Below, piece after piece: positions 36,486 through 49,644 of a stretch of 64,000 nucleotides of DNA; position 1 is the first letter of the stretch; each line of letters starts with the position of its first letter. Both the position numbers and the translations under genes were made by a program. The stretch comes from Alphaproteobacteria bacterium (GTDB lineage: Bacteria > Pseudomonadota > Alphaproteobacteria > Micropepsales > Micropepsaceae): contig JAFAWQ010000044.1 in the NCBI GenBank assembly GCA_019241645.1, positions 1 through 64,000 of the forward strand, in the 5' to 3' direction. The notes beneath the pieces are model-generated. The model saw nothing but the letters and a program-made list of their open reading frames with translations, had not been told where the DNA came from and ran no database searches.

Positions 36486-37132
36486 TCATGGAACATACGC
36501 GTTTGCAGCTGCGGCAGCACGGCGTTGAGCGGTGCGAGTACGGCCTCCACTACGCGGACATAGCTGCCAAGGGCGCGGCGGAATTCGCGAAACTCGGAAG
36601 TATGGCAGCCCGACTTCTGAGCATTGCGGTTGCCGCGCGGCGCCCCGCCCTTGAGCTTGATGCGAATTATCCTCCCCCGCTTGCGGGGGAGGTGCCGAGC
36701 ACCCGTTTGTGTGCGAGGCGGAAGGGGGGCTTGCTCGGCTCCCCCTACCGTCTCGCCGCTGTGCGGCGATCCACCTCCCCCGCAAGCGGGGGAGGATAAC
36801 GTGCTGTTGTTGCTAGACATTCGGGTTGAGGTTGTTTTGCGATTTTCGGCAGGGGGTGGGCTCCCCTCGTCCGGCAAGGACGGCAGCGCCGGCAGGCGCA
36901 GACTGGCCAGAAGAAGGGCCGCCATCGGCTCGAGCTGCGGCGCTCTCTCGAGCCGTCCCAGCAACACCGCCGTTTCCTTTAGCGACCTGGATATCCGGAG
37001 AAACGAGTAGACCCAAGCCAGACGGAGCTGATTGTTCCCGGCTGCAACGACCCGGTCCCCGCATGCCTGCATCAATCTGAACTGCGCCCATACCTGCGTC
37101 CGCAGGGCAGACAACTGCTTTTCTCGGTTCAT
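36486..37132 (-). CDS. hypothetical protein interrupted by a coding palindromic element; 3' end unresolved
   Basis: From the ATG at 37132 the frame reads a helical N-terminal domain (QVWAQFRLMQACGDRVVAAG, then LRISRSLKETAVLLGRLE). Next comes a low-complexity piece encoded by the palindromic repeat at 36667-36799 (Ser/Gly/Pro and Arg/Lys), then KGGAPRGNRNAQKSG. The last resembles the GAP.GNRNA motif of small alphaproteobacterial hypotheticals, followed by a helix (RRALGSYVRVVEAVLAPLNA). The same frame then stays open for more than 1 kb antisense to anmK, so the natural stop seems lost. A +1 frame ends at 36486 with TGA. A frameshift or decay is likely. The boundaries given are my best estimate. 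Confidence 0.45.
36667..36799. repeat. 133-bp palindromic double-hairpin repeat (copy A)
   Basis: Terminal inverted repeats TTATCCTCCCCCGC (36667-36680) and GCGGGGGAGGATAA (36786-36799) bound the element. Each end is also a hairpin in itself (CCTCCCCCGC..GCGGGGGAGG). The interior has GAGGCGGAAGGGGG and CTACCGTCTCGCCGC. The reverse complement of copy B (49521) matches it almost along its whole length. It lies inside the reading frame of the 37132 gene. Confidence 0.8.
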
Positions 37133-44200: not shown

Positions 44201-44325
44201 GGTTCCTCCCCTGCGAAGCGGGGGAGGTGTCGAGCGCGGAATGCGCGAGACGGAGGGGGCATTCGCATGCGCCCCCTCCACCGCCTTCGGCGGTCCCCCT
44301 CCCCCGCTAAAGCGGGGGAGGAACC
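44201..44325. repeat. 125-bp palindromic double-hairpin repeat (copy C) inside the suf operon
   Basis: GGTTCCTCCCCTGC (44201-44214) and GCGGGGGAGGAACC (44312-44325) form the ends with one mismatch. Inside are GACGGAGGGGGCATTCGCATGCGCCCCCTCC and ACCGCCTTCGGCGGT hairpins. The left half matches the half copy at 55979. It fills the only wide gap (194 bp) in the suf operon, between sufS and sufU. Confidence 0.8.
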
Positions 44326-44345
44326 CGCGTTGGGGGAGTTAGCCG

Positions 44346-44801: not shown

Positions 44802-45184
44802 ATATGGAGCCGATCACCCCTGCGATGAACGCCGAGGTTTCCGCGGCGAGCGCGGAGACCAAGCTCACGCCTGCGGAACTGGACGACTTCACCGACAAGC
44901 TCGTGAAGGCGCTGAAGACCGTTTACGATCCGGAAATCCCGGTGGACATCTACGAGCTCGGCCTTATCTACAAGGTGGATGTGGCCGACAATTACGACAC
45001 CGCGGTGGACATGACCCTAACCGCACCGGGTTGCCCGGTAGCGGGTGAAATGCCCGAAATGGTGCGCCACGCGCTCGAAGGCATCGACGGCATCGGCAAG
45101 GTGACGGTGAACATGACCTTCGATCCGCCCTGGACGCCGGAACGCATGAGCGAAGAAGCGAAACTCGAACTGAACATGTATTGA
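44798..45184 (+). CDS. sufT: SufT (MIP18/DUF59 family Fe-S assembly protein)
   Basis: A 128-residue DUF59 protein. I chose the ATG at 44798, which overlaps the sufU stop. The body has the family motif KALKTVYDPEIPVDIYELGLIY, then VDMTLTAPGCPVAGEMP with the conserved Cys, and the terminal VNMTFDPPWTPERMSEEAKLELNMY. It is a SUF-operon version of the MIP18/PaaD fold that assists in cluster assembly or transfer. The sufA gene starts one base after its stop. Confidence 0.94.
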   Translation: MNMEPITPAMNAEVSAASAETKLTPAELDDFTDKLVKALKTVYDPEIPVDIYELGLIYKVDVADNYDTAVDMTLTAPGCPVAGEMPEMVRHALEGIDGIGKVTVNMTFDPPWTPERMSEEAKLELNMY

Positions 45185-45185
45185 G

Positions 45186-45620
45186 ATGAGCGACTCTCTG
45201 ACATCAGCCCCACCCGAACCGCTGCGCGGTTCGACCTCCCCTCAAGGGGGAGGTAAGATAAGGCGCGAGCGGCCGAAGGCTATCAAGCTTTCGCAAGCGG
45301 CCGCCTCGCGCATTCGCGACATCATAGCGAGCGCCGATGGCAAAGTTCAGGGCGTGCGCGTGGGTGTCACCAATGGCGGCTGCGCCGGCATGAGCTACAC
45401 CATGGATTACGCCGACGCTCCGCAGCCTTTCGAGGAAGTGGTGGAAGACCAGGGCGTCAAGGTGTTCATCGATCCCAAGGCGGTTCTGTTCCTGATCGGC
45501 ACGGAGATGGATTTCGTGCGCGAGAAACTTGGCAGCCGTTTCGTCTTCAACAACCCGAACCAGACGGCCGCCTGCGGCTGCGGCGAGTCGGTTACCCTGA
45601 AGCCAGCCGAAGCAGACTAA
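45186..45620 (+). CDS. sufA: A-type Fe-S carrier SufA (HesB/IscA family), with repeat-encoded N-terminus
   Basis: A 144-residue HesB/IscA protein. The conserved domain begins about residue 30 (AIKLSQAAASRIRDIIAS) and carries the cluster ligands: Cys in NGGCAGMSY (about 60) and the C-terminal CGCGES pair. Residues ~10-23 (PEPLRGSTSPQGGG) are encoded by a palindromic hairpin element (45215-45254), giving a longer N-terminus than usual for the family. The ATG at 45186 lies one base beyond the sufT stop. It receives clusters from SufBC2D and passes them to target proteins. Confidence 0.92.
   Translation: MSDSLTSAPPEPLRGSTSPQGGGKIRRERPKAIKLSQAAASRIRDIIASADGKVQGVRVGVTNGGCAGMSYTMDYADAPQPFEEVVEDQGVKVFIDPKAVLFLIGTEMDFVREKLGSRFVFNNPNQTAACGCGESVTLKPAEAD
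45215..45254. repeat. palindromic element inside the sufA reading frame
   Basis: Two adjacent hairpins: CGAACCGC / GCGGTTCG (45215-45222 with 45226-45233, TGC loop), and ACCTCCCC / GGGGAGGT (45234-45241 with 45247-45254). The latter resembles the end hairpin of the larger repeat family (CCTCCCC..GGGGAGG). It keeps the sufA frame open. Confidence 0.7.
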
Positions 45621-45640
45621 CGTCGAATCCGCTTACCTTG

Positions 45641-46114
45641 ATGAGCGCCAAGCCCTCGAAAGTCACTGCGTATTCGTTGCCAAGTTTGGCTGCCATCCAG
45701 AACGCCATCGCCGGGTTCCTAATCAGCTATGGCTTCGAGTCGTTCTGCTGGTTTTTTGTAATCGAGCAAAAGTGGACGCATGCAGCGCCGCGAAATCCTC
45801 TTGCCATCATGGGGCTAACTTATCCCCACAATGTGCACCGAACGGTCGTGTATTTTTCGGCCTTTCAGGCTTCTGTGTGCGCGATCATGTTTTTTACGTC
45901 GATTCCGCTCTGCTTTGTCGGGGCTGCATTGATGACAAAGAAAAATGTTCAGAGACGTCTTTTTAGAATTTCATGGGATGTGGGAGATCCGGAAGGCGTA
46001 TACAATTGGGCATTTTTAAGCGGGGCGTTAGCTGCGCCATTTATCATATTGGTTATCGGTCCTTATTTGGTCCGATACCTGAATTCGTGTGGATTTGTCC
46101 CAAGTCTCGGATGA
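45641..46114 (+). CDS. four-helix membrane protein of unknown function, lower GC than neighbours
   Basis: A 157-residue protein from the ATG at 45641. Hydrophobic segments at about 18-40, 72-95 and 128-150 suggest three or four transmembrane helices. The sequence includes PSLAAIQNAIAGFLISYGFES and LSGALAAPFIILVIGPYLVRYL. Its base composition is visibly richer in A/T than the flanking suf and parC regions (runs such as TTTTTAGAATTTCATGGG), suggesting acquisition from elsewhere. No family recognised. The gene lies between sufA and the TfoX-like gene with short spacers and may be read from the suf promoter. Confidence 0.6.
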   Translation: MSAKPSKVTAYSLPSLAAIQNAIAGFLISYGFESFCWFFVIEQKWTHAAPRNPLAIMGLTYPHNVHRTVVYFSAFQASVCAIMFFTSIPLCFVGAALMTKKNVQRRLFRISWDVGDPEGVYNWAFLSGALAAPFIILVIGPYLVRYLNSCGFVPSLG

Positions 46115-49520: not shown

Positions 49521-49644
49521 TCCTCCCCCGCTCGCGGGGGAGGTGGATCGCCGCGCAGCGGCGAGACGGTAGGGGGAGTGGCATTCCCCCTTCCGCCTCG
49601 CTGTGCTTCGCTTGCTCGTCACCTCCCCCGCAAGCGGGGGAGGA
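49521..49644. repeat. 124-bp palindromic double-hairpin repeat (copy B) between era and recO
   Basis: The left hairpin TCCTCCCCCGC..GCGGGGGAGG and the right hairpin CCTCCCCCGCAAGCGGGGGAGGA bound the element. The interior has GCCGCGCAGCGGCGAGACGGTAGGGGGA. The reverse complement aligns with copy A at 36667, including the blocks GCGAGGCGGAAGGGGG and CTACCGTCTCGCCGC, so A and B are in opposite orientation. It fills most of the era-recO gap. Confidence 0.8.

Follow-up and report, generated by a model that had tools for sequence, protein, structure and literature searches.

A two-hairpin palindromic repeat unit in frame within the sufA gene of an alphaproteobacterium

The sufA gene of this alphaproteobacterial genome (family Micropepsaceae) carries two adjacent hairpins that are very probably a copy of a palindromic repeat, dispersed and non-autonomous, that inserted in frame and was tolerated in a tail of the encoded protein predicted as coil. 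The repeat forms a family in the genome, the palindrome is absent from the sufA genes of the relatives examined, the reading frame runs open through it, and no common start codon lies 3' of the hairpins ahead of the conserved fold. The element would have entered in frame behind approximately the eighth sufA codon, after the split from the closest sampled relative, lengthening a variable, coil-predicted tail and leaving the Fe-S carrier fold intact; it would be tolerated because it lands in that tail and spares the fold. We infer that SufA is made with the palindrome-derived tail and is functional, that the repeat moved via a transposase acting in trans or by replication-linked copying, and that the insert is nearly neutral. 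An earlier note on this DNA had proposed a palindromic element inserted with the frame kept open, and the proposal is supported by the dispersal of the repeat, by its absence from the examined SufA relatives, and by in-frame copies in other conserved genes. Positions are those of the window, the whole stretch of 64,000 nucleotides that was analyzed (Table 1).

Table 1. Features at the sufA locus, in window coordinates
Feature	Position	Strand	Basis
sufT-like gene (SUF system FeS assembly protein)	44807..45184	+	PF01883, TIGR02945; 44807 is not an assigned start codon
sufA (IscA/SufA-type Fe-S carrier, 144 aa)	45186..45620	+	ORF; Pfam PF01521; NCBIfam TIGR01997
Palindromic repeat unit of the dispersed family, subfamily I (sufA codons 8-23, 48 nt)	45207..45254	+	Match to positions 1-50 of covariance model R1 (E 6.9e-11); strict pattern
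CCCCACC, the unit's 5' block, conserved and unpaired	45208..45214	+	13-copy alignment
Hairpin A; stem letters vary among copies, pairing kept	45215..45233	+	Arms located; RNA fold; copy alignment
Hairpin B; stem ACCTCCCC/GGGGAGGT nearly constant	45234..45254	+	Arms located; RNA fold; 13-copy alignment

The palindrome in sufA and the tail of SufA

Hairpin A pairs the arms CGAACCGC and GCGGTTCG (45215-45222 with 45226-45233; 8 bp, 3 nt loop) and is followed directly by hairpin B, formed by ACCTCCCC and GGGGAGGT (45234-45241 with 45247-45254; 8 bp, 5 nt loop). The hairpins lie where the earlier note had placed them, and its extent of codons 10-23 gives way to codons 8-23 since the conserved 5' CCCCACCC belongs to the repeat, so that the unit spans 45207-45254 rather than the hairpins alone. 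As RNA, 45205-45262 folds at -29.8 kcal/mol against -16.56 (sd 2.8) in shuffles (z -4.73), a value matched by none of 200 shuffles; folded as DNA, the palindrome has a z of -5.63, again equaled by 0 of 200. The net gain in the SufA tail is 15 residues, roughly PPEPLRGSTSPQGGG.

The sufA start adjoins the stop of the sufT-like gene, and a TGA stop lies in frame at the fifth codon 5' of the sufA ATG. Between codon 1 and codon 57 the frame contains no ATG, GTG or TTG, and codon 57, the next such codon, is already inside the fold; the insert should therefore be translated as part of SufA, if the protein uses a common start codon. A very improbable alternative is that the hairpins form a 5' leader and SufA begins 3' of them. 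In other species, Di Nocera and colleagues suspected as much for many of the REPs that lie at the N-termini of ORFs (PMC3733652), but here the lack of common start codons ahead of codon 57 leaves just rare ones, such as the ATA at codon 25, and the SufA proteins of relatives start at an ATG adjoining the sufT stop. An internal start 3' of the hairpins, which would have spoken against a palindrome-encoded tail, was looked for and is absent as ATG, GTG or TTG up to codon 57.

The earlier note's estimate that the conserved IscA fold begins only near residue 30 is borne out by protein models: Pfam Fe-S_biosyn (PF01521) matches residues 33-133, and the NCBIfam SufA model TIGR01997 matches residues 32-138 at 131.6 bits, slightly under its cut-off of 136.2. 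An AlphaFold2 model built with 29 sequences places the first strand at residues 33-35, with neither helix nor strand before residue 33, and mean pLDDT rises from 64 (residues 1-10) and 62 (11-20) to 75 (21-30) and 95-96 (31-60). The insert is thus predicted to sit within a coil tail, with the fold starting at residue 33. Directly 3' of sufA lies an ORF with a TTG start (45638-46114, 158 aa) that has no Pfam or NCBIfam match.

SufA is matched in 59 of 60 same-genus genomes (our own included), and the DNA of the best 30 loci, our own and those of 29 same-genus relatives, was examined for sufA. None of the 29 has an in-frame palindrome in sufA at the DNA level, nor does any of 80 named loci, a set that overlaps the 29 and in which many contigs are shared. 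The protein has 25 residues before RRERP, compared with 10 in the closest relative, whose SufA is 89-90% identical over the shared part. A homologue equally extended yet lacking the palindrome, which would have spoken against the earlier note's reading, was not seen among the relatives examined. The closest SufA relatives are non-rickettsial alphaproteobacterial MAGs, one of them titled Rhizomicrobium. One locus that aligned over query residues 3-141 (L175) was rejected as a SufA with a matching N-terminus, having an ordinary MATARPRPQ start and no palindrome. Another (L159) was rejected as a SufA insertion, its extra stretch coming after the stop codon; in this MAG, L159:1501-2024 holds, past the sufA stop codon, a second copy of the NPNQTAACGCGESVSITPA end, as though an insertion had taken place there.

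The N-terminal tail of SufA varies in length among relatives, and against the closest of them neither a target-site duplication, which along with terminal inverted repeats would mark a MITE, nor a base-exact empty site is visible for the sufA insert, the tail being too diverged. Tail variability would suit the formation of the palindrome in situ from the old tail, by chance or local copying and without insertion of a repeat; the unit, however, fits the genome-wide family over its whole length, at the E-value given in Table 1, which makes this origin most implausible. An assembly error at the repeat, for which the draft state of the genome leaves some room, is just as hard to credit: the frame is kept and the flanks carry on the suf operon as in relatives. 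Insertion of a repeat copy thus remains the preferred reading.

The repeat family

In the draft genome (2.87 Mb, 53 contigs) the strict pattern CCCCACCCG-N8-36-CGACCTCCCC has 20 matches, and the backward-read pattern that served as control has 0; the window holds one match, with 0.00 expected. A covariance model was built from seven copies, which match it by construction, with the sufA copy excluded; it yields 65 matches in the genome at E <=1, with rough E-values, of which the best 50 (E <=0.0103) were used. These 50 matches correspond to 34 places, namely 18 singles and 16 pairs lying <=100 bp apart. All 16 pairs are in opposite orientation, one of them self-overlapping, and inverted pairs elsewhere in the genome measure approximately 115-135 bp. 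For at least one of the singles (C47:196636) the strict pattern reveals a partner; the sufA copy has no partner unit.

Each unit consists of a 5' CCCCCACCC, a hairpin A of variable stem, and a nearly constant hairpin B, and subfamilies differ in their end blocks. The window also holds, at 36671-36795 and 49521-49643, two inverted pairs from a different subfamily (ACCTCCCCCGC...GCGGGGGAGG); noncoding DNA between sufS and a sufU-like gene, at 44202-44331, contains a related compound palindrome with CCTCCCC...GGGGGAGG units. In an alignment of 13 copies made by MAFFT, with no structure fitting, pairing holds in 95.2% of hairpin A cells, compared with 76.7% in shuffles, and both sides are changed in 22 cells (6.6 in shuffles, with 0 of 500 as high); further pair types, at 9 versus 8.9 in shuffles of the same 13 copies, are not raised. 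Paired cells and two-sided changes both exceed the shuffles, and the arms of hairpin A therefore change together, either by selection or by self-templated copying.

This pairing, kept as the letters change, together with the strong RNA folding of the sufA palindrome, bears on the possibility that the insert was retained for a function, its stem-loops, some 30-70 nt past the sufA start codon, altering the translation or stability of suf mRNA. Related palindromes in the sufT-sufA spacer of two relatives (L013 and L031), with a degenerate one in a third (L018), point the same way. Yet the operon junction is the same in relatives without any palindrome, predicted openness of the start codon is alike (mean unpaired probability 0.55 here and 0.47 in the closest relative), and copies in many other settings retain their pairing too, which therefore need not reflect a role in sufA. 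We consider a retained regulatory function unlikely, and favor a tolerated repeat insertion.

Selection for open frames within the element is not supported: 245 of 300 frames are open, against 241 (sd 4.3) in shuffles, no more than composition gives, and with openness at the level of composition the element shows no special coding fitness. A search for the RAYT-type transposase domain, limited to PF01797, found 0 matches in this genome and was positive in 5 of 14 control genomes; RAYT-driven mobility was accordingly rejected for this genome.

Copies in frame in other genes

ORFs over the 50 matches were listed, and 20 selected ORFs were scanned by Pfam. In-frame copies are supported at 8 of the 34 places, in sufA, rnr, trmB, rsmB, hemW, the gene for PDH E2, hyuAB and dnaX; the remaining 26 are intergenic, 5' of likely starts, or unproven. 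In RNase R (rnr) a pair lies within the RNB domain and is absent from seven of seven relatives (85 residues in the compared segment, versus 47-61). RsmB holds a pair within its methyltransferase domain, all seven relatives being shorter (85 versus 53-58), and in the closest relative (G041, L198) that place is occupied by a palindrome of 7 bp, TCTCCCC...GGGGAGA. The pair in TrmB also lies within the domain; five of seven relatives have no insert, and the two others, which belong to two other species (G048, L208; G043, L210), carry different palindromes, in frame and at the same place.

The HemW pair is N-terminal and is preceded by the gene's own ATG; in six of seven relatives a methionine stands 1-4 residues before the conserved GLYVHWP-type motif, and the insert contains a TTG that is a possible alternative start. 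Two relatives (G052 and G048) share the linker pair of PDH E2 and three lack it; in two more, the locus did not extend over it. HyuAB has a single unit at residues 518-534 that makes it 6-8 residues longer than six compared relatives; its linker near residues 408-458 shows more repeat-like sequence here and, judged by peptides, in two relatives. In DnaX a unit from a different subfamily lies between two Pfam domains and is called in frame by the domains only. A pair is also spanned by an NlpC/P60 gene whose Pfam score of 21.5 falls under the cut-off of 23.

Across the class, the model at E <=0.001 matches 42 of 190 genomes and 36 of 167 genera, our own genome included. The best locus in each of 29 genomes, 27 from other genera and 2 from the same genus, was inspected, and a long ORF crosses the element in 17 of them. 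Ten of these ORFs were sent to Pfam, and in none does a domain cover the element or do domains flank it on either side; in one (L238) the domains lie at residues 618-973 and the element at approximately 456. The in-gene habit of the repeat is therefore shown for this genus only.

Known palindromic repeats and implications

The earlier note had likened the element to the in-frame palindromic elements of Rickettsia (RPEs), a comparison that stands for behavior rather than membership. RPEs are palindromic repeats found in frame in conserved protein genes as well as in intergenic DNA, and the palindrome group that a given gene carries can differ between species (PMC3767692, PMC2229807; further precedents in PMC10969869, PMC5656822). 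As with RPEs and the palindromic elements of Wolbachia, copies here are inserted in frame in conserved genes (sufA and seven others) and also occur between genes, and one gene, trmB, holds different palindromes in different species; a table of RPE-bearing genes of R. japonica includes, as in this genome, a tRNA (guanine-N7)-methyltransferase (PMC3767692). However, the sufA unit is 48 nt, compared with 105-146 bp for RPEs (a size that the inverted pairs here roughly reach), and the host relatives lie outside the Rickettsiales. The repeat is set beside RPEs by description, not by sequence, and membership is not supported.

REPs of the GTAG and CGTC superfamilies are short repeats that fold into stem-loops; they occur singly or as inverted pairs, their stems change in complementary fashion, and some lie in frame in ORFs; the CGTC repeats are described in the same source as predominating in Alphaproteobacteria and as having no known transposase (PMC3733652). 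Our repeat shares the single or inverted-paired stem-loop units, the paired stem changes and the in-frame copies, but its unit has two hairpins and neither tag, and its genome has no RAYT. No GTAG lies near the element, and neither full tag, GTAG or CGTC, occurs on either strand of 45200-45262, a search that covers full tags rather than weaker variants; identity with these REPs was rejected on the absent tag. We found no description of the repeat among the listed matches in the open-licence literature.

A further resemblance is to the whalefall-1 RNA of Rfam (RF01762), described as a noncoding RNA whose only source was whale-fall metagenomes (PMC2864571). The sufA copy matches it on the minus strand at 45206-45256, over model positions 1-56 of 56, and the reverse strand shows the same constant hairpin, variable hairpin and GGGUG tail. 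Its score of 28.8 bits is nonetheless below the curated gathering threshold of 37, and what is described as a noncoding RNA is repeated DNA here; membership of RF01762 was not accepted at this sub-threshold score. Among 20 loci of our genome that were scanned, four distinct copies score 25.2-30.5 bits, and 1 of 20 class loci matches, at 27.6 bits. As a lead from sequence comparison, the RNA family may itself be repeated DNA.

Rickettsia and Wolbachia provide the best-known in-frame palindromes in conserved genes, and such cases are listed for REPs in some free-living species; what is seen here is an example of this known phenomenon from a further lineage, and its breadth within one genome was unexpected. 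It adds eight supported cases that close relatives mostly lack, and at least one protein place entered by different palindromes in different species. We hold only tentatively to a wider and rather doubtful reading, in which this non-rickettsial lineage would run the RPE process independently, distinct palindrome families repeatedly entering the same loops of conserved proteins in frame; TrmB (three species, three palindromes), RsmB, and the HyuA and E2 linkers are its examples of repeated entry. If true, protein-coding palindromes would be a general alphaproteobacterial route to protein change, the TrmB loop would perhaps be the same as that used in Rickettsia, and Rfam whalefall-1, rather than a small RNA, would be palindromic mobile DNA of the present class. 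Comparison makes it testable whether the site is chosen by the DNA or by the protein, and whether the inserts are neutral. Annotators should be aware that tails such as PPEPLRGSTSPQGGG would derive from a repeat. On contig C33 of the same genome (G000), at approximately 77-89 kb, five inverted pairs lie within some 12 kb among phage-type genes, including NlpC/P60.
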